Source of the DNA: Myxococcales bacterium
Lineage (GTDB): Bacteria; Myxococcota; Myxococcia; Myxococcales; JAJYLH01
Reading direction: 5' to 3'
Length of the DNA stretch: 64,000 bases
Assembly (NCBI GenBank): GCA_021787845.1
Contig: JAJYLH010000010.1
Span: forward strand, 1 to 64,000
Shown here: one piece after another, positions 48,440 through 61,322 of the stretch
How positions within the stretch are numbered: the first letter of the stretch is position 1
Layout: every line of letters begins with the position of its first letter
Notes under the pieces: generated by a model
What the model saw: the letters and a program-made list of their open reading frames with translations, nothing else
Database searches by the model: none
Told to the model about the DNA's origin: nothing
Translations under genes and position numbers: made by a program

Positions 48440-50341
48440 ATGTGCGGCATCGCTGGTCAAATCGCCTCTCGCCCTCCGCACCTCGAGCCGGCGCTGCACA
48501 CCCTCGTCCATCGCGGTCCCGACGACGAGGGGCTCCAGATCTTCCGCGCGGGGGACTGGCACGGCGCCCTGGGTTTTCGCCGCCTGGCGATCCTCGACCT
48601 GACACCGACGGGGCACCAGCCGATGTCCAACGAGGACGGCACGGTGTCGGTCATTTTCAACGGCGAGATCTACAACCGCCCCGAGCTGCGCGCCGCGCTC
48701 GAAGGACAGGGGCACCGCTTCCGGGGAACGTCCGACACCGAATGCCTGGTCCACGGCTATGAAGCCTGGGGCGACGCCGTCCTCGAACACCTGCGGGGGA
48801 TGTTCGCCCTCGCCGTCTGGGACGCCCGCCGGGAACGGCTCCTGCTCGCGCGCGACCGCATCGGCATCAAGCCGCTGTATTACTGCCTCGATCGCGGCGG
48901 CATCGCGTTCGCCTCCGAGATGAAGGCGCTCTTCGCGCTCGGCGCGCCGCGCGAGCTCGACCCGGCGTCCGTCGCCGAATATTTGCGCTACCTGTACGTT
49001 CCTCCGCCGGCCACGTTCTATCGCTCGATCCGACAGCTTCCGCCGGCGCACCTGCTGGTCTGGGAAAAAGGCGCCGTCCGAGTCCAACGCTATTGGGACC
49101 TGGCGCGGGTCGAGCCGGTGCGACGCCGCGCCACCGAGCTACGCGAAGTGGTGCGCGCGACGCTCGAGGAGGCGGTGCGGCTGCACCTCGCTTCCGACGT
49201 CCCTCTGGGCACCTTCCTCTCGGGCGGCGCCGACAGCTCCACGATCGCGGCGATGGCCGCGAAACTCTCCCCGACCCGGCTCAAGACCCTCACCCTCGTG
49301 TTCGGCGAGAAGGCCTACGACGAGGCGGCCTATGCGCGCGCGGTCGCCGCCAAGTACCAGACCGAGCACACGGAAATCGCGGTCCAGGCGAACTTGGTCG
49401 AGACGCTCCCGGCGATGCTCGACGCCTTCGATGAGCCGTTCGGCAATCCGACGGCGCTTCTCCTCTACCTCTTGGCGCGGGAGACCCGGCGGCACGTGAC
49501 GGTCGCTCTCGCTGGGGACGGCGGCGACGAGATGTTCCTCGGCTACCCGCGATATCAGGGGATCTGGCTCGCCGACCACCTTCGACGGATTCCTCCCGGT
49601 CTTCGCCGCATCGCCCTGCGGCCGCTCGCTGGGCGGTTGAGCGACTCCCTGGAGGGGCGCCACGTGTTTCGCCGAGCGCGGGAGTTCCTCGAGTCCGCCG
49701 AGCTGGCGCCGGAGGCCGCGTACCAGCGTTGGGTGGCCTATCGATCATTGGACCAGGCGCTCGATCTGTTGCATCCGGACCTCCGGCGGCCGGCCGCGGC
49801 GGAGGCGAGGCGAGATTTCCTCTGGCAGGCCTTCGCCGACGCACCCGAGGACGCAGCGCCCGGCCGCGCCGCCTTCGTCGACGTGCAGAGCTTCTTGCCG
49901 AACAACGTGCTCGCTTACAGCGACCGGATGAGCATGGCGCATTCGTTGGAAATCCGGGTCCCCTTCTGCGACCACAAGGTCGCCGAGCTCGCGGCCTCCA
50001 TTCCCGCGTCCCAGCGGATGCCGTCCGGGAGGCTCAAGGCGCTCTTGCGCAGCTCGGTCGCCGATCTCTGGCCTGACGTGGTCCGACGGCGAAGGGACAA
50101 GGTCGGGCTCAACCCGCCGCTCGGCGTGTGGCTTCGCCGTGACTTGGCCCCGCTCGTCGAAGAGACGCTGTCGCCAGCGGCGCTCGGGCAGAGCGGCCTG
50201 CTCGACCCGGCGGCCGTCGGCGCGCTGCTGGCCGAACACCGGCTCGGTCGCCGTGATCGGTCGCTCGAGGTCTGGTCGCTGATCGTCCTGGAGTCTTGGC
50301 ATCGTTCACTGACCAAGGCGTCCGGACCCGGCCCGTCTTGA
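48440..50341 (+). CDS. Asparagine-synthase-like glutamine amidotransferase
   Basis: About 633 residues. The catalytic Cys2 follows Met in MCGIAGQI, starting a glutamine-hydrolysing Ntn domain (VFNGEIYN-type stretch SVIFNGEIYN, RDRIGIKPLYY). The C-terminal ATP-binding synthase domain has GTFLSGGADSSTIAAM and ALAGDGGDEMFLGYPRY. In polysaccharide loci such AsnB-type enzymes amidate sugar carboxyl groups. That role is inferred from the neighbours; a free asparagine synthase cannot be excluded. The upstream open frame is not part of the protein. Confidence 0.9.
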   Translation: MCGIAGQIASRPPHLEPALHTLVHRGPDDEGLQIFRAGDWHGALGFRRLAILDLTPTGHQPMSNEDGTVSVIFNGEIYNRPELRAALEGQGHRFRGTSDTECLVHGYEAWGDAVLEHLRGMFALAVWDARRERLLLARDRIGIKPLYYCLDRGGIAFASEMKALFALGAPRELDPASVAEYLRYLYVPPPATFYRSIRQLPPAHLLVWEKGAVRVQRYWDLARVEPVRRRATELREVVRATLEEAVRLHLASDVPLGTFLSGGADSSTIAAMAAKLSPTRLKTLTLVFGEKAYDEAAYARAVAAKYQTEHTEIAVQANLVETLPAMLDAFDEPFGNPTALLLYLLARETRRHVTVALAGDGGDEMFLGYPRYQGIWLADHLRRIPPGLRRIALRPLAGRLSDSLEGRHVFRRAREFLESAELAPEAAYQRWVAYRSLDQALDLLHPDLRRPAAAEARRDFLWQAFADAPEDAAPGRAAFVDVQSFLPNNVLAYSDRMSMAHSLEIRVPFCDHKVAELAASIPASQRMPSGRLKALLRSSVADLWPDVVRRRRDKVGLNPPLGVWLRRDLAPLVEETLSPAALGQSGLLDPAAVGALLAEHRLGRRDRSLEVWSLIVLESWHRSLTKASGPGPS

Positions 50342-50786: not shown

Positions 50787-52247
50787 ATGGCGAAGACGGC
50801 GACGAGCGTGGTCGAACAGGCGCCGGCACGGGCGGCACCAGCGCTGCCGCTGTGCGTGGACCTCGACGGCACCCTCATCGCGACCGACGTCTTCGTCGAG
50901 TCGACCCTTGCGGTGGTCGCCCGCCATCCGCTCTGGGTGCCGCGCCTCGCGCTGCTCTTCCTGCATGGCCGCTCGCGGGCGAAGTCCTTCGTCTCCGAGC
51001 ACGGAGAGCTCGACGTCGAGGCTCTGCCGTATCGCGAGGACGTGCTCGAGTTCCTGCGCGAGGAGCGGGCGAAGGGGCGGACGCTCGTGCTGGCGACGGC
51101 GGCCCATCGCCTCCTCGCGCAAAAGGTCGCCGCGCACCTCGGCCTCTTCGACGACGTGCTCGCCAGCAGCGGTTCGACCAACCTGAAGGGCACCCACAAG
51201 GCGGAAGCGCTGGCGCAGCGCTTTGGGGAAAAGGGCTTTTCGTACGCGGGCGACGCGCGGGTGGACCAGGCCGTGTGGGCGCGCGCGGGCGAGGCCGTCG
51301 TGGTCGGGTCAGCGGCGCTCGCGCGACGGGCGGCGCGAACGACCCCGGTCGCGAAGACGTTCGCGCCCGAGCCGCCAGGGCTCAAAGCCGCCGTCAGGGC
51401 ACTGCGCGTCCATCAATGGCTGAAGAACCTGCTCGTCTTTCTGCCTGCCTTCGCGGCGCATCGGCTGCGCGACCCGGCGACCCTCGTCGCCGCGCTCATC
51501 GCCTTCTGGGCCTTCAGCCTCTGCGCCTCGGCGGTCTACGTCGCGAACGATCTCGCCGATCTGTCGAGCGACCGGCGGCACCGTTCCAAGCGAACCCGGC
51601 CGTTCGCGTCGGGCGCGGTTCCCATCGCCGCCGGCCTGGGAGCGATACCGCTCCTGCTCCTTTCGTCGGCGGTCCTCGCGACTTTGCTGCCGCCGTCGTT
51701 CGGCCTCGTGCTCGCGAGCTACTTCGTCCTGACGACGCTCTACACCTTCTCGCTCAAGCGGATCGCGCTCGTCGACGTGCTCGCTCTCGCCGGACTCTAC
51801 GCGGTGCGCATCTTCGCCGGCGGCGCGGCGGCCGAGGTCGCGGTCTCGCCTTGGCTCATCGCATTCGCGCTCTTCCTCTTTTTGTCGCTGGCGCTCGTCA
51901 AACGAGTCTCGGAGCTGCAAGCGGCGACGAACGGCGGCGCGTCGCTCTCCGGTCGCGGCTACCAGCCCGGCGACCTCGAGGTGCTCCGCCAGATGGGCAT
52001 CGCGAGCGGCTACCTCGCGGTGCTGGTCCTCGCGCTGTACCTCCAGAGCGCGAAGGTCGAGGGCCTCTACCGGCGGCCGGAGCTGCTGTGGCTCGCGTGT
52101 CCGCTCCTGCTCTTCTGGGTGAGCCGCGCCTGGCTCGTCACCCACCGCGGCGAGATGCACGACGACCCGGTCGTCTTCGCCCTCCGGGACCCCTTGAGCC
52201 TGGCGGTCGGCGTGCTCACGGTGCTGATCGTGGTGCTCGCGACATGA
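50787..52247 (+). CDS. HAD phosphatase fused to UbiA prenyltransferase (polyprenyl-P phosphoribosyl transferase)
   Basis: About 486 residues. Residues about 20-210 are a HAD domain (D25-L-D-G-T, LVLATAAHRLL, SYAGDARVD). Residues about 225-486 are a multi-span UbiA domain. RVHQWLKNLLVFLP and N254-D-L-A-D...SDRRHRSKRTRPFASG closely follow the mycobacterial enzyme that transfers 5-phosphoribose from PRPP to decaprenyl phosphate. The HAD part could then remove the 5-phosphate. The stop overlaps the DprE1-like start by ATGA. Start ATG 50787 has AAGAGG upstream; an earlier GTG is possible. Pathway role is inferred with the two next genes. Confidence 0.88.
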   Translation: MAKTATSVVEQAPARAAPALPLCVDLDGTLIATDVFVESTLAVVARHPLWVPRLALLFLHGRSRAKSFVSEHGELDVEALPYREDVLEFLREERAKGRTLVLATAAHRLLAQKVAAHLGLFDDVLASSGSTNLKGTHKAEALAQRFGEKGFSYAGDARVDQAVWARAGEAVVVGSAALARRAARTTPVAKTFAPEPPGLKAAVRALRVHQWLKNLLVFLPAFAAHRLRDPATLVAALIAFWAFSLCASAVYVANDLADLSSDRRHRSKRTRPFASGAVPIAAGLGAIPLLLLSSAVLATLLPPSFGLVLASYFVLTTLYTFSLKRIALVDVLALAGLYAVRIFAGGAAAEVAVSPWLIAFALFLFLSLALVKRVSELQAATNGGASLSGRGYQPGDLEVLRQMGIASGYLAVLVLALYLQSAKVEGLYRRPELLWLACPLLLFWVSRAWLVTHRGEMHDDPVVFALRDPLSLAVGVLTVLIVVLAT

Positions 52248-53575
52248 CGGCGGCTCGTCGCATCGACTCCTGGGGGAGGGTGCTCCACGCCCGCCAGCTC
52301 CCGGTGCCCCTCGCCTGGCGCGACGTCTCCTTGGAAGCGCTGCCGGACAGCTCGCTCTTGGCGCACGGGCTCGGCCGGACGTACGGCGACGGATGCCTGA
52401 ACGATGGGGGAGCGCTCCTGCTCACCCGCGGGCTCGACCGGTTCATCGCCTTCGATTCGAAGACGGGGATCCTGCGTTGCGAGGCCGGCGTGTCGCTCGA
52501 AGAAATCATCCGCCTCGCCCTGCCGCGCGGGTGGTTCCTCCCGGTGACCCCGGGCACCAAGTACGTCACAGTCGGCGGCGCCATCGCGAACGACGTCCAC
52601 GGCAAGAACCACCATCGCGCGGGAACATTCGGGCGCTTCGTGCGGGCGTTCGAGCTCGTGCGTTCCGACGGGCGGGTCGAGTGCACGCCAGAGAAGAACG
52701 CGGACCTCTTTCGCGCGACCGTCGGCGGCTTGGGGCTGACCGGTCTCGTCACCTGGGCCGAAATCCAGCTCAAGCCGGTCACGAGCGCTATCGTCGAGCA
52801 GGAGGTCACGAAGTTTCGTTCGCTCGACGAGTTCTTCGCGCTCAACCAGGAGGCGGACCACAAGTTCGAGTACACCGTCGCGTGGATCGACGGGCTCGCG
52901 ACGGGACGTTCCCTCGGCCGCGGCCACTTCATCTCGGGCAACCACGCGCCCGCGGACCTGGCGCACCCCGGAAAAATCCGCGCGAAGCCGCTCCTCCGGG
53001 TGCCCTTCGACGCGCCGAAATGGCTCTTGAATCCCGTCACCATCCGCCTGTTCAACACGGCCTACTACCACCGCCAGCTCCGGCGCGTTTCCCGGTCGAC
53101 CACCTCGTTCGACCCGTTCTTCTACCCGCTCGACCTCGTCGGTGAGTGGAACCGCATCTATGGAACGGGAGGGCTCTTCCAGTACCAGTGCGCCGTCCCT
53201 CCCCAATCGATGCGCGAGGTGATTCGCGCCTTGCTCGTCGAAATCGCCCGCTCGCGCCAGGCCTCGTTTCTCGCGGTCTTGAAGACCTTCGGCGACCTGA
53301 AGAGCCCGGGCCTGATGTCCTTCCCGCGCCCGGGGGCGACGCTCTCGCTCGACTTCGCCAACCGCGGCGAAGTGACGAACGCCCTCTTCGAGCGGCTCGA
53401 CGCGATGGTCGAGGAATGCGGCGGGGCGCTCTACCCGGCGAAGGACGCGCGGATGAGCCCCGCGCGGTTCCGCCGGTTCTTCCCCGCCTGGGAGGAATTC
53501 GCGCGCCACCTCGAGCCGCGGTTCTCGTCCAGCTTCTGGCGGCGGGTGACCGATGCGAAAGGCGCGCGGGCATGA
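52244..53575 (+). CDS. dprE1: DprE1-like FAD oxidoreductase (polyprenyl-phosphoryl-ribose 2'-oxidase)
   Basis: About 443 residues, vanillyl-alcohol-oxidase fold. It oxidises C2' of polyprenyl-phosphoryl-ribose, the first half of ribose-to-arabinose epimerisation. Motifs match mycobacterial DprE1: GLGRTYGDGCLND, TPGTKYVTVGGAIANDVHGK with H119 just before GKNHH, and the catalytic-type K400 in YPAKDAR. The mycobacterial cysteine hit by benzothiazinones is replaced by S368 (ATLSLDF). It overlaps genes on both sides by ATGA, so all three are coupled. Confidence 0.93.
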   Translation: MTAARRIDSWGRVLHARQLPVPLAWRDVSLEALPDSSLLAHGLGRTYGDGCLNDGGALLLTRGLDRFIAFDSKTGILRCEAGVSLEEIIRLALPRGWFLPVTPGTKYVTVGGAIANDVHGKNHHRAGTFGRFVRAFELVRSDGRVECTPEKNADLFRATVGGLGLTGLVTWAEIQLKPVTSAIVEQEVTKFRSLDEFFALNQEADHKFEYTVAWIDGLATGRSLGRGHFISGNHAPADLAHPGKIRAKPLLRVPFDAPKWLLNPVTIRLFNTAYYHRQLRRVSRSTTSFDPFFYPLDLVGEWNRIYGTGGLFQYQCAVPPQSMREVIRALLVEIARSRQASFLAVLKTFGDLKSPGLMSFPRPGATLSLDFANRGEVTNALFERLDAMVEECGGALYPAKDARMSPARFRRFFPAWEEFARHLEPRFSSSFWRRVTDAKGARA

Positions 53576-54309
53576 AGCGGATTCTGGTGCTGGGCGCGAA
53601 CAGCGCGATCGCCCAGGGCGCCGAGCGGGAGGCCTCCCGCCAAGGCGATGCGCTCTTTCTCGTCGCGCGCAACGAGGAGCACCTGGCGCAGGTGGCCGAC
53701 GACCTGCGCGTGCGTGGCGCCTCCCAGGTTCACACGCTGGCCGCCGACCTGACGGACGCGACGCGGCATGAGGCGATTCTCGACGCGGCCGAGGCGGCGC
53801 TGGGCTCGGTCGACGGCGCGCTCGTCGCGCATGGCGTGCTGACCGATCAGCCGGCCGCCGAACGCGACCCGGAAGTGCTCCGCCGTGATTTCGACGTGAA
53901 CTTCCTCTCCGCCGCGTCGCTCTTGACGCACCTCGCGAATCGATTCGAAGCGAGAGGCTCGGGAGCGCTGGTGGTCATCTCCAGCGTCGCCGGTGACCGC
54001 GGGCGGCAGAGCAACTACGCCTACGGCTCGGCGAAGGCCGCCTTGAGCGCTTTTGCCTCCGGGCTGCGCAACCGCTTGGCGAAGAGCCGCGTCACCGTCA
54101 CCACGGTCAAGGCCGGCTTCGTCGACACGCCGATGACCGCGCACGTGGCGAAGAACGCGCTCTTCGCGTCCGCTGGCGACCTGGGCCGCGCGATCTACCG
54201 CTGCTTCGACAAGCCGCGCGACGTCGTCTACCTGCCGTGGTTCTGGCGGCCGATCATGGGCGTCGTGCGCGCGGTGCCCGAACGCCTCTTCAAGCAGATG
54301 AAGCTGTAG
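53572..54309 (+). CDS. dprE2: DprE2-like short-chain reductase (keto intermediate to arabinose)
   Basis: About 245 residues, SDR family. The NAD(P) site is ILVLGANSAIAQGAEREA and the catalytic YxxxK is in SNYAYGSAKAALSAF, preceded by SSVAGDRGR as in mycobacterial DprE2. It would reduce the 2'-keto intermediate to polyprenyl-phosphoryl-arabinofuranose. A C-terminal hydrophobic/basic tail (PWFWRPIMGVVRAVPERLFKQ) could touch the membrane. The next gene starts 11 bp after its stop. Confidence 0.92.
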   Translation: MKRILVLGANSAIAQGAEREASRQGDALFLVARNEEHLAQVADDLRVRGASQVHTLAADLTDATRHEAILDAAEAALGSVDGALVAHGVLTDQPAAERDPEVLRRDFDVNFLSAASLLTHLANRFEARGSGALVVISSVAGDRGRQSNYAYGSAKAALSAFASGLRNRLAKSRVTVTTVKAGFVDTPMTAHVAKNALFASAGDLGRAIYRCFDKPRDVVYLPWFWRPIMGVVRAVPERLFKQMKL

Positions 54310-54320
54310 GAGATCTCCCC

Positions 54321-56462
54321 GTGAAACAGGTCCTCCAGTCGTATCGCACCGGCGCCGTCAAGGTGACGGAGGTCCCCGCCCCCACGGAAGCGGAGCCGGG
54401 GGGCGTCCTGGTCCACACGACCGCGAGCCTGGTCTCGGCGGGCACCGAGCGCATGGCGATGGAGCTGGGCAAGAAGAGCCTCGTCGGCAAGGCGCGGGCG
54501 CGACCGGACCTCGTGCAGAAGGTGATGCAGAAGCTCGCGCGCGAGGGCGTGGTGGCGACCGCGCGCACGGTCTTCGCCAAGCTCGACGTGCCGAACCCGC
54601 TCGGCTACTCGTGCGCCGGGCGGGTGGTCGACGCCGACGACGCGCCGTTCTCGATGGGCGACCGGGTCGCCTGCGCCGGCGCCAAGGTCGCGAATCACGC
54701 CGAGATGAACGCGGTGCCGCGAAACCTCTGCGCCCGGGTGCCGGCGGGGATTTCCGACGAGGAAGCGTCGTTCGTCACCGTCGGCGCCATCGCCCTGCAC
54801 GGGGTGAGAACGGCAGCGGTGCAGCTCGGCGAGCGGGTGGCGGTCATCGGCCTCGGGCTCATCGGGATGCTGGCGATGCAGCTCTTGCGCGCGCAGGGGT
54901 GCAAGGTGCTGGGGGTCGACCTCGACCGGAAGAAGCTCGACCTCGCGAAGGAGCTCGGCTGCGATGCCGTGGGGCATCCCGGGGCCGAGGCGGTCGAGGC
55001 GATGGCGGCGATGTCGAACGGACGCGGCGCGGACGCGGTGGTCATCTGCGCGGCGACGAGCTCGGACGATCCGGTGGCGCTCGCGGGCGAGCTGGCGCGC
55101 GACCGGGCGCGCATCGTCGCGGTCGGCGCGGTCGGAATGAACCTGCCCCGGAGGCCCTACTACGACAAGGAGCTCGTCTTCCTGCAATCGCGCTCCTACG
55201 GCCCCGGCCGTTACGACCCGACCTACGAAGAGCGCGGGGTCGACTACCCGGCCGGCTACGTGCGTTGGACCGAGCAGCGAAACCTCGAGTCGTTCCTCGA
55301 GGCGGTCGCGTCGGGCGCGGTCGACGTGAAGCGCTTGATCACGCACCGGTTTCCCATCGAGAAGGCCGAGGACGCCTACCGCTTGATTTCCGGCGAATCG
55401 GGCGAGCCGTTTCTCGGCGTCGTGCTGACCTACAGCGCTAAAGGAGAGCCGGCGACGAACGTCGAGCTGCGCGGACCGGAGGCGGCCGCCGCGGCGCACG
55501 ATCGCGTCGGCCTCGCCTTCGTGGGCGCGGGCGCGTTCGCGACTGGGGTGCTGGTGCCGGCGTTCTCGAAGGTGACGGGAGCGAAGCTGGCCTCCGTCGC
55601 AAGCGCCCGGGGCGTCTCGTCGCGCCACCTCGCCGACAAGTTTCGCTTCGCCCGCGCGACCAGCGACCTCGACGCCCAGCTCGCGGACCCGGCGGTCGAC
55701 GCGGTGGTGATCGCGACACGGCACCATCTCCACGCCGCCCAGGCGATCGCGGCTCTGAACGCGGGGAAGCACGTCTTCGTCGAAAAGCCGCTGGCGCTTA
55801 ACGAGAACGCTCTTGCCGAGCTTCTGGCCGCGCGGGAGCGCGCCGGGCGGCTGTTGATGGTGGGCTTCAACCGTCGTTTCTCCCCGCTGGCGCGTGAGCT
55901 TGAGAAACGCTTGTCGTGCCGCAAGACCCCTCTCGTCCTGCACTACCGCATCAACGCCGGGCCGATAGCGCCGGAGTCGTGGGTCAAGGATCCGGCGGTC
56001 GGCGGTGGACGCATCGTCGGCGAGGCGTGCCACATGGTTGACCTGGTGTCGTTCCTCTGCGGGGCGGTACCGGTGCGGGTCTACGCGGAGCGCGCGGGGC
56101 AGAGCGACGACGACGTGTCGATCACGCTACGTCTGAGCGACGGATCGGTCGCGACCATCGACTACGTCGCGACCGGCGACCCGGCGTATCCGAAGGAGCG
56201 GCTCGAAGTGCTGGGCGACGGCGCTGTCGCTACCCTCGACGATTTTCGGACTCTCGATTTCGCCAAGGGCCGGCGCCAGCGGATGACGTCCTTGCTCAAG
56301 GACAAGGGCCACGCGGCGGAAGCGGTGGCGTTCGTCGAGGCGGTCAAGCGTGGCGGGCCGCCGCCGATTTCCTACGAGTCGCTCGCCGCGACGACGCGGT
56401 CGACGTTCGCGGCGCTCGAGAGCTTGGCGACAGGGCTGCCGGTGACCGTCGGGTGCTCATGA
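54321..56462 (+). CDS. Bi-domain oxidoreductase: zinc-type dehydrogenase fused to Gfo/Idh/MocA
   Basis: About 713 residues. Residues 1-375 are a medium-chain dehydrogenase (GYSCAGRVVDADD, VAVIGLGLIGMLAMQLL) and residues about 390-713 a Gfo/Idh/MocA sugar oxidoreductase (LAFVGAGAFATGVLVPAF, EKPLALNENAL). This fusion is known from polysaccharide gene clusters, often next to a heparinase-like gene, as here. The reaction on a sugar nucleotide or lipid-linked sugar is not established. Start is GTG 54321 with AGGAG. The ribosome site lies at the end of dprE2. Confidence 0.9.
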   Translation: MKQVLQSYRTGAVKVTEVPAPTEAEPGGVLVHTTASLVSAGTERMAMELGKKSLVGKARARPDLVQKVMQKLAREGVVATARTVFAKLDVPNPLGYSCAGRVVDADDAPFSMGDRVACAGAKVANHAEMNAVPRNLCARVPAGISDEEASFVTVGAIALHGVRTAAVQLGERVAVIGLGLIGMLAMQLLRAQGCKVLGVDLDRKKLDLAKELGCDAVGHPGAEAVEAMAAMSNGRGADAVVICAATSSDDPVALAGELARDRARIVAVGAVGMNLPRRPYYDKELVFLQSRSYGPGRYDPTYEERGVDYPAGYVRWTEQRNLESFLEAVASGAVDVKRLITHRFPIEKAEDAYRLISGESGEPFLGVVLTYSAKGEPATNVELRGPEAAAAAHDRVGLAFVGAGAFATGVLVPAFSKVTGAKLASVASARGVSSRHLADKFRFARATSDLDAQLADPAVDAVVIATRHHLHAAQAIAALNAGKHVFVEKPLALNENALAELLAARERAGRLLMVGFNRRFSPLARELEKRLSCRKTPLVLHYRINAGPIAPESWVKDPAVGGGRIVGEACHMVDLVSFLCGAVPVRVYAERAGQSDDDVSITLRLSDGSVATIDYVATGDPAYPKERLEVLGDGAVATLDDFRTLDFAKGRRQRMTSLLKDKGHAAEAVAFVEAVKRGGPPPISYESLAATTRSTFAALESLATGLPVTVGCS

Positions 56463-56492: not shown

Positions 56493-58421
56493 GTGCGGCC
56501 GATGAGCGTGCCTGAGCGTTTTCGCCGCTTGGCGCGCACGGTCATCCGTCTGCACCCGGCGCAGATTCTTTTCCGTCCGGTTCACGTCGCCAGAACGCGT
56601 GTGCTGTCGCGCTGGCCAACGGCAGCGCAGCTTCTCGCCGGAAGCCCTACCGTCCAGCCAGCCGGGAGGATCCTTTCGTTCGACGGCTCGCTTAGTCTCG
56701 CGCTCCCAGGCATCGGGCCGGAGATCGAGCGGGCCGATCGCGCGCTGGAGGGCCACGTCGAGTTGGTGGGCTGCCGGATCCCGGTACGGCCGCCGCGGAC
56801 CGACTTCCTGGCGCCAGACGTTCCGAAGCTCATCCGCTACCAGCTCAACTACCTCGGCGTCGTCCGGTCGCTGGCGGTCGCGGCGCGTACCGCGGGCTTC
56901 GCGCACGGGCCCGCGGCCGCGCGTCTCGCGTGCGCGCACGCGCGGGAGCTCGTCGAACGGATTCCGCCGGGTCGGGGCGATGCCTGGGAGCCGTATGTCG
57001 TCGCGACCCGGCTCCTCAACCTGTTGCTGATGCGCGAGCTGCTGCGCCCGGTCAGCGCTGGCGCCGAGCGCGAGTACCTCGAGGGACGACTTCTCGCATC
57101 GCTCGGGCAGCACGCGCGATGGCTCTTCGGGACGCTCGAGCTGCACCTGCTCGGCAACCATCTCTTCACCGACGGGGCGGCGTTGTTCGTCGCGGGCTGC
57201 GCGCTCGACCTGAACGGCGCAGCGCTGTTCCGGGAGGTCGGCCGCGCGATCGTGGCGCGATCGCTCGCGGTCGACGTGCTCAGCGACGGCGGTCACGCTG
57301 AGCGCAGCCCGATGTACCAGGCGTTCTATCTCGACCAGCTCGAGCTGGTGCTTGCGGCGGCGAGGGCCAGCGGCACCGCTGAGCCGGCCGGGGCGCGCGA
57401 GGCAGCGGCGCGGATGGCGGCGCAGCTCGTGGCAACGGCGCATCCCGACGGCGACCTTCCGCTCTTCGGCGACTCGGTCTTGGCAGAAGCGCCGCTGCCC
57501 GGCGACCTGGCGGCGCCGTTCGGGCTCGGGGCCGATTCGCTCCGCCGGCGGCTCTTCGGAGATCTCGGACGCGCGGTTCGGGTCGACGGCGATCTCGTCT
57601 CGTTTCCCGCCACCGGGTGGCACGTCAGCCGCGGTCGCGCCGATCACCTGGTGGTCGACGCGGGGCCGCTCGGAACGCGTGATCAGCCGGGCCATGCGCA
57701 CTCGGACGCGCTGTCGTTCGAGCTGTCGCACCGCGGCCGGCGGCTCATCGTCGACGGCGGCGCCGGCCATTACGAGAACGACGAGGCGCGGGCGTACTTT
57801 CGCGGGCCGTTCGCGCACAGCGCGGTCAGCGTCGGCGGCGAAGGGCCCGACGAGCTGTGGGCATCGTTTCGCGCGGGCGCTCGCGCGACGGTCGCGCCGG
57901 TGGTCGTCACCCGCGTCGGGTCGATGCGGGTGTTCCAGGGAACGGTGCGGGCGGCGGCCGGGTGGAGGGCGGAACGGCTCCTGCTCCACGCGCCGGGGGA
58001 GCTGCTCGCGGCGTTCGACCGCGTCGAGCGCGTCGAGGCCGGCGCCGAGGTCCTCTCGCACCTGCTGTGGGCGCCCGAGGTCCGGCTGGCCGCGCAGGAC
58101 GACGTGACGATGGACGTGGAGCCGAGCGGCGGGCCGGTTCTTTCGCTTCGTCGCCTCGCCGGGCGATCATGGCGAGCTCGGCGGGGGGAGCTGAAACCGT
58201 TTCGGGGCTTCAGCTCGAGCCGCATGGGCCGATTCGAACCGTCGGACGCGCTCGAGATCGTGGCGGAGCCCTGGGGGGGCGCTTGGAAGGCAGCGTGGGC
58301 GCTACTGCTCTGCGCGTCGGCGCATGTCGAGCCGAACGAGGCAGGAGCGCTTCTGGTGGTGAGCGACGTTCGCGTGCGCGTCCAGCTCGACGAGGCCGGC
58401 CTGAGCTGGAAGAAGGCATGA
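56493..58421 (+). CDS. Heparinase II/III-family protein
   Basis: About 642 residues. A helical N-terminal part ((alpha/alpha)-toroid; GNHLFTDGAALFVAG, SDGGHAERSPMYQAFYLDQ) is followed by a beta-sandwich with GHAHSDALSFEL, the conserved heparinase II/III motif. These are polysaccharide lyases or modification enzymes. No signal peptide is seen, so it may act in the cytoplasm or be exported otherwise. GTG 56493 with AAGGAG at 6-nt spacing is preferred over ATG 56502. It lies 30 bp after the bi-domain oxidoreductase. Confidence 0.85.
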   Translation: MRPMSVPERFRRLARTVIRLHPAQILFRPVHVARTRVLSRWPTAAQLLAGSPTVQPAGRILSFDGSLSLALPGIGPEIERADRALEGHVELVGCRIPVRPPRTDFLAPDVPKLIRYQLNYLGVVRSLAVAARTAGFAHGPAAARLACAHARELVERIPPGRGDAWEPYVVATRLLNLLLMRELLRPVSAGAEREYLEGRLLASLGQHARWLFGTLELHLLGNHLFTDGAALFVAGCALDLNGAALFREVGRAIVARSLAVDVLSDGGHAERSPMYQAFYLDQLELVLAAARASGTAEPAGAREAAARMAAQLVATAHPDGDLPLFGDSVLAEAPLPGDLAAPFGLGADSLRRRLFGDLGRAVRVDGDLVSFPATGWHVSRGRADHLVVDAGPLGTRDQPGHAHSDALSFELSHRGRRLIVDGGAGHYENDEARAYFRGPFAHSAVSVGGEGPDELWASFRAGARATVAPVVVTRVGSMRVFQGTVRAAAGWRAERLLLHAPGELLAAFDRVERVEAGAEVLSHLLWAPEVRLAAQDDVTMDVEPSGGPVLSLRRLAGRSWRARRGELKPFRGFSSSRMGRFEPSDALEIVAEPWGGAWKAAWALLLCASAHVEPNEAGALLVVSDVRVRVQLDEAGLSWKKA

Positions 58422-58495: not shown

Positions 58496-59782
58496 ATGAG
58501 GATTCTGTACCTGAGCCAGTACTACCCGCCGGAGATGGGCGCACCGGCCGTGCGCGTCAGCCAGGTCGCGCGGGCCTGGGCGGCCGACGGGCATCTCGTC
58601 ACGGTGCTGACCGGCTTCCCGAACCACCCGACCGGAGTCGTCCCGCCCGAGTACCGCGGCTGGCCGTACGTGCGGCGCGAGAACGACCACGGCGTCGAGG
58701 TCGTGCGCACGCCCATCTACGCCGCCGCGAACAAGGGCCTCGTCCGCCGCAGCCTGAACTACCTCTCCTACGCCGCGAGCGCGTCGATTCTGGGGCCGTT
58801 TCTGACCCGGCGGCCAGACGTCGTCGTCGCGACGAGCCCGCAGTTTCTCACCGCCGTCGCCGGGTTCGAGCTGGCGAGGCTCCAGCGGGCGCCGTTCGTC
58901 TTCGAGGTCCGGGACCTGTGGCCGCGCTCGATCGTCGAGGTGGGCGCGATGAAGGCCGAGAGCCCTGTCGTCCAGCTTCTCGGACGCCTCGAGCTGTTCC
59001 TCTACCGTCACGCGGACCGCATCGCCGTCGTCACCGACTCGTTCGTCGACGAAATCGCCCAACGCGGCATCCCGCGCGAGAAGATCGTCGTCGCGAAGAA
59101 CGGCGTCGACCTCGACCTGTTCTCGCCGGGGCCGCGCGACAACGAGGTGCGCCGAGCGCTCGGCCTCGAGGGGAAGTTCGTCGCCGCGTACATCGGCACC
59201 CACGGGCTCGCGCACGGCCTCGGGACCATTCTGGAAGCGGCAGCGCTCTTGAGGGGCGACGACCGCTTCCGGTTCCTGCTGGTGGGGGAGGGCGCGGACA
59301 AGGCGGCGCTCGAGGAGCGCGCCCTGGCCGAGAATCTCGCGAACGTCATCTTCGTCGACAAGCAGCCCCACGAGCGGATTGCGCTCTACGCGCAGGCGGC
59401 CGACGCGACGATGGTGCTGCTCAAGGACAAGCCGCTCTTTCGCACCGTGCTGCCGTCGAAGATGTTCGAGCTGATGGGCTGCGCCCGGCCGATCGTGCTC
59501 GGGGTCGACGGCGAGGCGCGCCAAATCGTGGAGGGCGCGCGGGCGGGCTTGTTCGTGCCGCCGGAGTCGGCGCCGGCTCTGGTGCGGGCGCTCTGCCAGC
59601 TCGCGGACCACCCGGCGGAAGCGGAAGCGATGGGCGCCAGGGGCCGCGCTTGCGTCGAGGCGAGCTTCTCGCGGAAAGTCCTGGCGCGCCGCTACCTGGA
59701 CGAGCTGGCCCGCGTCGTGTCCAAGGACCGGACGGTGACCGAGACCGCTCCCGCCATGCCAGCGCCCGGCGAGGCCGCATGA
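58496..59782 (+). CDS. Glycosyltransferase, GT4 family, WbuB-like
   Basis: About 428 residues. The start MRILYLSQYYPPEMGAPAVR and GFPNHPTG, FEVRDLWPRSIVEVG and KNGVDLDLFSP are typical of the WbuB branch, several of which transfer aminosugars in O-antigen and capsule synthesis. The donor-site region is FRTVLPSKMFELMGCARPIV. The gene sits directly upstream of the initiating phosphoglycosyl transferase, so it may add the second sugar. Donor identity is unknown. Confidence 0.88.
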   Translation: MRILYLSQYYPPEMGAPAVRVSQVARAWAADGHLVTVLTGFPNHPTGVVPPEYRGWPYVRRENDHGVEVVRTPIYAAANKGLVRRSLNYLSYAASASILGPFLTRRPDVVVATSPQFLTAVAGFELARLQRAPFVFEVRDLWPRSIVEVGAMKAESPVVQLLGRLELFLYRHADRIAVVTDSFVDEIAQRGIPREKIVVAKNGVDLDLFSPGPRDNEVRRALGLEGKFVAAYIGTHGLAHGLGTILEAAALLRGDDRFRFLLVGEGADKAALEERALAENLANVIFVDKQPHERIALYAQAADATMVLLKDKPLFRTVLPSKMFELMGCARPIVLGVDGEARQIVEGARAGLFVPPESAPALVRALCQLADHPAEAEAMGARGRACVEASFSRKVLARRYLDELARVVSKDRTVTETAPAMPAPGEAA

Positions 59783-59798: not shown

Positions 59799-61322
59799 AT
59801 GCTGACGTTCGTCGTCGCGTTCGCGCTCGCGTTCGCGGTGGCGGCGGCCACGACGCCCCTCTTGCGCGCCCTCGCGCCGCGCATCGGCGGCATCGACCGG
59901 GCAGAGAGCTCGCGCAAGGTCCACACGGTGCCGGTCCCCCGCATCGGGGGGGTGGCTATCGTCGTCGCCTTCTTCGCGCCGCTCTTCGGGCTCCTGCTCT
60001 ACCACACCGGTGTCGGTAAGCTCTTCTTGAGCGACATGGGCCGGGTGACGGGCCTTTTCGTCGGCGGCCTCGCCATCGCGGCGTTGGGGTTCTTCGACGA
60101 CCTGCGGGGTTTGGGCGCGAGGCAGAAGTTCGCGGTGCAATTCGCGGTTGCGGGCTTGATGTACGCGCTCGGCTACCAGGTCCACGCCATCTCGCAGCCG
60201 TTCGGCGCGCCGCTCCATCTGGGGCTCCTGTCGCTGCCGTTCACCGTCGTGTGGATCGTGGGAATCATCAACGCGATGAACCTCATCGACGGGCTGGACG
60301 GCCTTGCGGGCGGCGTCGCGATCATCGCGGTGGGGCTGACGTTCTCGGTCAGCTTCAACCGGCCGGACCTCCTGATGTGCCTCTTCATGGCCGCGCTGGG
60401 CGGCGCGCTGATGGGCTTTCTGCTCTACAACTTCAACCCGGCGACCATCTTCATGGGCGACACGGGGAGCATGTTCCTCGGGTTCATCCTCGCGACCACC
60501 TCCATCGCCTCGGGCCAGAAGAGCTCGGCGACGGTGGCGATGCTGGTGCCGATCGTCGGGCTGGGGCTGCCGATCGCGGACACCTTCCTCGCGATGTTCC
60601 GGCGGGCGCTGCGGGGCCGGCCGATGTTCTCGGCCGACAAGGAGCACATCCACCACAAGCTGCTGGCGCTCGGCCTGACGCACCGGGAGGCAGTGATCGT
60701 GCTCTACGGCGTGTGCCTCGCGCTCGCGGCCGCGGCCTTCTCCCTCACCTTCGTGAACAGCCACTCGGCAGCGATTCTGCTCGCCGGTCTGGGCGCCGTG
60801 TCGATCGTGCTCCTGCGGGCGCTCGGTTACCTCGCCGTCAGCCGCGAGGAGAGCCGGAGGAATGCCGCTGCCCGGGAGCGCAATCAGAGGGTAAGAGGGC
60901 TGGTGCATGACATCGGTGAGAAGCTGAAGGAGGCGCAGGGCGTCGAGGTGGTGTGGGACGCGGTCAAGTACCTGGCGCCGGCGCTGAGCGCGCGGGAGAT
61001 GACGCTGAGCGTGGTGGTGCGGCAGGACGAGGGCGAGCAGGTCCGAAACGTTCACACCTGGCGGGCGCCGGAGGTGGCCTCGGGGCCGCAGCGGTGCGTG
61101 GCGCGGGTCGACCTCGAGGCGCGGGCGAGCTCGGCCCAAGGCCCGGCGGGCGAGGTCGAGCTCGTGTGGACGGACGGGCGGCGAGCAGTCGAGCGCGACG
61201 ACGAGATCGCGCTGGAGATGCTGGTCGATCATCTGGAGACCGCGCTCCACCGGTTGCGCGACCGACCGGCGGCGCCGGCGCCCAACGTCATCGAGATGCG
61301 GCGGTCGAACCGAAGAAGCTGA
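59799..61322 (+). CDS. WecA/TagO-type polyprenyl-phosphate sugar-1-P transferase with extra C-terminal domain
   Basis: About 507 residues. It starts repeat-unit synthesis by moving a HexNAc-1-phosphate to undecaprenyl phosphate. Eleven or so spans carry the family motifs RKVHTVPVPRIGG, FFDDLRGLG, NAMNLIDGLDGLAGG, FMGDTGSMFLGF and KEHIHHKLL. The family usually ends near residue 350. Here a soluble segment of about 150 residues follows (VRGLVHDIGEKLKEA..., DDEIALEMLVDHLETAL), mixed alpha/beta and reminiscent of a GAF domain. The ATG at 59799 follows the GT4 gene by 16 bp. Confidence 0.91.
   Translation: MLTFVVAFALAFAVAAATTPLLRALAPRIGGIDRAESSRKVHTVPVPRIGGVAIVVAFFAPLFGLLLYHTGVGKLFLSDMGRVTGLFVGGLAIAALGFFDDLRGLGARQKFAVQFAVAGLMYALGYQVHAISQPFGAPLHLGLLSLPFTVVWIVGIINAMNLIDGLDGLAGGVAIIAVGLTFSVSFNRPDLLMCLFMAALGGALMGFLLYNFNPATIFMGDTGSMFLGFILATTSIASGQKSSATVAMLVPIVGLGLPIADTFLAMFRRALRGRPMFSADKEHIHHKLLALGLTHREAVIVLYGVCLALAAAAFSLTFVNSHSAAILLAGLGAVSIVLLRALGYLAVSREESRRNAAARERNQRVRGLVHDIGEKLKEAQGVEVVWDAVKYLAPALSAREMTLSVVVRQDEGEQVRNVHTWRAPEVASGPQRCVARVDLEARASSAQGPAGEVELVWTDGRRAVERDDEIALEMLVDHLETALHRLRDRPAAPAPNVIEMRRSNRRS

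Follow-up and report, generated by a model that had tools for sequence, protein, structure and literature searches.

A predicted three-gene module for lipid-linked arabinofuranose synthesis in a Myxococcales bacterium

The 64,000-nt window analysed here (positions 1–64,000 of the 109-kb contig JAJYLH010000010.1 from a Myxococcales bacterium) carries three overlapping genes that encode a HAD-UbiA fusion protein, a DprE1-like oxidase and a DprE2-like reductase. Because family, fold and active-site residues agree, it is very likely that their operon makes a lipid-linked sugar donor, polyprenyl-phosphoryl-D-arabinofuranose, from phosphoribosyl pyrophosphate (PRPP). The original prediction, made from the DNA sequence alone, placed the three genes and both ATGA junctions exactly (Table 1). 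It also proposed steps from PRPP to polyprenyl-phosphate-ribose-5-phosphate, polyprenyl-phosphate-ribose and polyprenyl-phosphate-arabinose, and the same three lines of evidence support these well. It further implied that the arrangement was new, which does not hold, as discussed below.

The fusion scores 634.5 bits against the corresponding NCBIfam fusion family (NF006088, cut-off 351). Its UbiA domain (PF01040) carries an NDxxDxxxDR motif at residues 254–263, and the best PDB match of this half by sequence is Rv3806c of Mycobacterium tuberculosis (phmmer, 3.5e-28). An AlphaFold model of the fusion (mean pLDDT 91.8) gave the same protein as its top PDB fold in Foldseek (8j8j; 1e-10, TM 0.81 on the target). 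The PRPP-bound structure of Rv3806c names the PRPP/Mg2+ contacts, and eleven of these were compared: Arg22, Lys28, Tyr70, Asn73, Asp77, Lys87, Arg90, Gln135, Tyr138, Lys143 and Tyr157 (PMC10994848). All but one are identical in the aligned UbiA half (R207, K213, Y251, N254, D258, K268, R271, Y319, K324 and Y338). The genome's other UbiA protein, of the heme-O type, differs at the equivalents of Y70, D77, K87, Y138 and Y157, and cannot be aligned over the R22/K28 region. Since ten of the eleven contacts are kept in the fusion and several are changed in the heme-O-type protein, the UbiA half is very probably a polyprenyl-phosphate phosphoribosyltransferase with PRPP as donor, judging from the alignment and the model.

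The phosphatase half (PF12710, residues 25–160) has intact HAD catalytic residues, namely D25 and D27 in DLDGT, T104 in motif II, K138, and D160 in motif III, all of them invariant over 39 sequences. Variation was seen elsewhere in the family. Four relatives (L049 9526–10998, L052 9136–10458, L055 4061–5569 and L060 6464–7807) have wholly or partly lost the motif-I Asp pair (ELEGVL, ALETL, ELDEVL) and combine a shortened HAD half with an intact UbiA half. One of these, L052, keeps DprE1/E2 alongside, so some other phosphatase would be needed there. In another family of the order (L066, L067, L068 and L069) the UbiA part occurs without a HAD domain, and DprE1 adjoins it in three of the four loci.

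The DprE1-like protein matches profile NF053785 far ahead of any other (1.6e-111) and is similar over its full length to DprE1 in the PDB (7.3e-79). Its H119, K121 and K400 correspond to His132, Lys134 and Lys418 of the M. tuberculosis enzyme, and the catalytic His and Lys are kept in all scorable homologues. The DprE2-like protein matches profile NF053786 (3.8e-52) and exceeds the cut-off of NF005489 (288.9 bits against 267). Among PDB entries it is closest to mycobacterial DprE2 (21gq_C, 4.3e-25; next family 1.2e-16), and it has the YxxxK site of short-chain dehydrogenases/reductases (SDR) as YAYGSAK at residue 149. The motifs named in the original prediction were all recovered, HGKNHH and AKDAR at residues 119 and 399 of the oxidase and SSVAGDRGR at residue 137 of the reductase. 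Cys387 of mycobacterial DprE1 is the covalent target of the nitro-benzothiazinone tuberculosis drugs. Ser368 sits at this position in the present protein, and across 67 aligned DprE1 homologues the residue is Ala in 63 and Cys in one (L104). Ser here and Ala in most homologues predict that these environmental bacteria would be naturally insensitive to benzothiazinones.

Taken together, the following route is proposed, its reactions, like the flippase, transferase and acceptor, being predicted from the proteins described above. The UbiA half would move 5-phosphoribose from PRPP onto a polyprenyl phosphate, presumably undecaprenyl rather than decaprenyl phosphate given the Gram-negative background, and the HAD half would take the 5′-phosphate off polyprenyl-phosphate-ribose-5-phosphate to leave polyprenyl-phosphate-ribose. 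As the original prediction suggests, joining the two domains in one protein might channel the intermediate between them. DprE1, with flavin adenine dinucleotide (FAD) as cofactor, would oxidise C2 of this lipid-linked ribose, and DprE2, using NAD(P)H, would reduce the resulting 2-keto compound to the arabino epimer, polyprenyl-phosphoryl-beta-D-arabinofuranose. A flippase encoded elsewhere would then carry the lipid-linked sugar to the periplasm, where a GT-C transferase, also encoded elsewhere, would attach arabinofuranose, most plausibly to a polysaccharide made by the downstream GT4 and WecA-type genes.

Several observations weigh against this assignment. Three equivalog profiles are matched below their cut-offs: NF053785 (DprE1) at 373.7 bits against 500, NF053786 (DprE2) at 177.4 against 250, and NF008978, the mycobacterial decaprenylphosphoryl-5-phosphoribose (DPPR) synthase, at 153.7 against 207. 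The eleventh PRPP contact, Gln135 of Rv3806c, which touches ribose O3, is Thr here, as it is in 35 of 38 related fusions compared. Finally, open reading frame (ORF) calling and a hydropathy screen of both strands detected neither a GT-C nor a flippase gene on the 109-kb contig. The earlier remark that no arabinosyltransferase is visible applies to the whole contig as well as to the window.

The original prediction had proposed looking for a GT-C arabinosyltransferase in the genome. At least 12 PMT_2 GT-C proteins are encoded on other parts of the genome, unlinked to the module, while EmbABC, AftA and full-length AftB had no match in the genome (profiles NF041481, PF04602 and PF12250). Candidate transport and polymerisation proteins are also encoded elsewhere (one GtrA, five LPG_synthase_TM, three Wzx-type Polysacc_synt and four Wzy_C matches). 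None of the matches to these five families could be tied to the module. GT-C profiles built from clusters that adjoin the module in relatives were searched against part of the genome's ORFs. The one notable match in this genome (L162 8346–9986), to a Sedimenticola-type PMT_2 protein at 1.3e-9, is too weak, and its gene is unlinked to the module, so that it was not assigned as the transferase. On contig C52 a GtrA and a GT-C gene lie about 2 kb apart, separated by a gene judged by sequence to be poly(A)-polymerase-like; that this pair serves as the module's flippase and transferase is possible but unsupported.

An AftB-like profile built from relatives gave a single match in the genome, of 72 residues. 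It is an N-terminal fragment (DDAWISFRIARNLLEHG...EGMTNLLWTLLS; L178 1468–1740; contig C153, ~137.4 kb) that is flanked by the genes of a response regulator and the cognate sensor kinase. No continuation was found in any frame of that strand, and the fragment looks like a truncated remnant.

A polysaccharide fits the local operon, and the chances that it is the acceptor are about even. The donor could also be made as described and its sugar be placed on a protein, such as a type IV pilin, or on a glycan assembled elsewhere, an alternative that falls a little short of an even chance. Pseudomonas paraeruginosa puts the sugar of the same donor on its type IV pilin (PMC12369383), relatives of the order carry the module among unrelated genes outside polysaccharide clusters, and the genome has its Wzx- and Wzy-type genes on other contigs; on the other hand, polysaccharide-type genes lie directly 3′ of the module here, with gaps of 11 to ~75 bp. 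As a tentative and rather doubtful extension, much of this order of large-genome Gram-negatives might carry an as yet undescribed envelope glycan or glycoprotein that contains arabinofuranose, the sugar being attached by a family of GT-C transferases other than EmbABC, AftA and AftB whose genes are not linked to those for the donor.

It is improbable that the DprE1/DprE2-like pair acts on the lipid-linked ribose to give a different pentofuranose, for example xylofuranose by inversion at C3. Citrobacter O2 makes xylofuranose from the same ribose donor with a different SDR epimerase (PMC11127046), and the DprE1-like protein has only moderate identity to mycobacterial DprE1, but the equivalents of His132, Lys134 and Lys418 are kept, and DprE1/E2 homologues go with arabinofuranose glycans where ORF13-type epimerases go with xylofuranose glycans (PMC11127046). 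A conventional prenyltransferase, of the aromatic or heme-O type and joined to an unrelated phosphatase, would share the common UbiA fold (PF01040) but is hardly credible and was rejected, as the PRPP contacts are kept in the UbiA half while five equivalents are changed in the genome's heme-O-type enzyme, the DPPR synthase score of 153.7 bits exceeds the 33.3 bits of the heme O synthase profile and the 21.7 of the UbiA profile, and the fusion shares its operon with DprE1/E2.

Polyprenyl-phosphoryl-arabinofuranose synthesis is the reading carried forward here, and its closest parallels have been described before. An HAD-phosphoribosyltransferase fusion from Citrobacter youngae was assayed biochemically by Kelly et al. 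(2024, PNAS), who made mutants in the HAD Asp and in the Asn/Asp motif, obtained farnesyl-phosphate-ribose from PRPP in vitro, defined a three-component pentofuranosylation system with a flippase and a GT-C enzyme, and linked DprE1/E2 homologues to Gram-negative arabinofuranose glycans (PMC11127046). As described there, ORF15 of C. youngae O1 resembles the present fusion in its N-terminal HAD domain, its UbiA-fold phosphoribosyltransferase, its N-D-x-x-D motif and its lipopolysaccharide (LPS)-bearing host. It differs in working without DprE1/E2, its product being ribose or, with ORF13, xylose, and in adjoining its MATE flippase and GT136 transferase (PMC11127046), whereas in the present locus DprE1/E2 come next and neither a flippase nor a GT-C gene is linked.

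The mycobacterial decaprenylphosphoryl-arabinose pathway (Rv3806c, Rv3807c, DprE1, DprE2 and Rv3789) shares the predicted chemistry, the phosphoribosyltransferase fold, the PRPP contacts and the DprE1/DprE2 homologues, but its phosphatase is Rv3807c rather than a fused HAD domain, its DprE1 has Cys387 in place of Ser, and it employs EmbABC, AftA and AftB. In LPS-bearing P. paraeruginosa (PSPA7_6245-6251, TfpW), genes for D-arabinofuranose biosynthesis and pilin glycosylation are known (PMC12369383). That system likewise uses a lipid-linked D-arabinofuranose donor in a Gram-negative, and a DPPR synthase orthologue has been proposed for it, but its phosphatase is separate (PMC11127046) and its pilin acceptor is known. 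The chemistry, the fusion and its occurrence in Gram-negatives are therefore already known, and the locus is a further example rather than a new system. It adds a well-supported case of lipid-linked arabinofuranose synthesis outside the actinobacteria and shows the three-gene module to be common.

Table 1. Module and neighbouring genes, numbered by position in the 64,000-nt window.
Feature	Coordinates	Strand	Evidence
HAD-UbiA fusion (phosphoribose phosphatase + predicted polyprenyl-phosphate phosphoribosyltransferase), 486 aa	50787..52247	+	ATG 50787, TGA 52245-52247; PF12710, PF01040, NF006088
ATGA start/stop overlap, HAD-UbiA/DprE1	52244..52247	+	sequence
DprE1-like FAD oxidase, 443 aa	52244..53575	+	ATG 52244; profile and PDB matches, catalytic residues
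ATGA start/stop overlap, DprE1/DprE2	53572..53575	+	sequence
DprE2-like SDR reductase, 245 aa	53572..54309	+	ATG 53572; profile and PDB matches, SDR active site
Zn-dehydrogenase/GFO-IDH-MocA fusion, probably same operon	54321..56462	+	11-bp gap; domain search
Heparinase II/III-like protein, probably same operon	56493..58421	+	domain search
GT4 (WcaI-like) glycosyltransferase, probably same operon	58496..59782	+	profile/domain search
WecA/MraY-type polyprenyl-phosphate sugar-phosphate transferase, probably same operon	59799..61322	+	profile/domain search
Asparagine-synthase-type amidotransferase (XrtA/EPS-type), upstream neighbour	48440..50341	+	profile/domain search

The four genes 3′ of DprE2 are spaced by 11, 30, 74 and 16 bp in turn, and these short gaps make it likely that the seven genes from the HAD-UbiA fusion to the WecA/MraY-type transferase form one operon. 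The last of them suggests lipid-linked polysaccharide synthesis. The host had been called LPS-bearing, and homologues of lpxA, lpxB, lpxK, kdtA/waaA, msbA and bamA at 28.5–40.2 kb of the same window bear this out, indicating an LPS-type envelope.

One scan of a genome collection found at least 526 relatives of the HAD-UbiA fusion, and gene order was counted in the best 80 of these loci. HAD-UbiA, DprE1 and DprE2 follow in that order in 51. In another five DprE1 comes next but is not followed by a called DprE2, and four of these five lie on or close to the end of a contig. In two loci DprE1/E2 are located upstream on the opposite strand, five offer no space downstream, and 17 lack DprE1. The family E-values and the same gene order in 51 independent loci rule out chance ORFs. 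Hosts of the fusion include Xanthomonas, Dyella, Burkholderia, Paraburkholderia, Pseudomonas, Vibrio, and Verrucomicrobia, Planctomycetes and KSB1 records. Of 195 genomes from the phylum to which the window belongs, 76 score above the fusion-family cut-off and 118 contain a DprE1 homologue at 1e-40. Phylogenetic trees, for which sampling was thin, group the DprE1 protein with a same-order relative (0.98) and the fusion with a metagenome-assembled genome of Methylacidiphilales (0.97). As the nearest relatives differ, the module may be of mixed ancestry.

Neighbours of the module in relatives include GtrA, SMR/EamA-like or LPG_synthase_TM proteins together with GT-C proteins. The GT-C proteins adjoining the module in L081 and L094 match the AftB arabinofuranosyltransferase profile weakly (6.3e-6 and 7.5e-7). 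A recurrent string of genes is present 3′ of DprE2 in L076 (13502–16191) and about 20 beta- and gamma-proteobacterial loci: an SDR epimerase (PF01370), an amine-oxidase-like protein (PF01593) and GtrA (PF04138), then often a GT-C protein. In some of the loci that lack DprE1, a GMC-type FAD oxidoreductase comes after HAD-UbiA, either directly (L075, 6491–8359; L139; L148) or further on (L107), and SDR epimerase-like genes lie near it in L075, L148 and L107. Such a GMC oxidoreductase and SDR could be an alternative oxidase/reductase pair for another pentofuranose.

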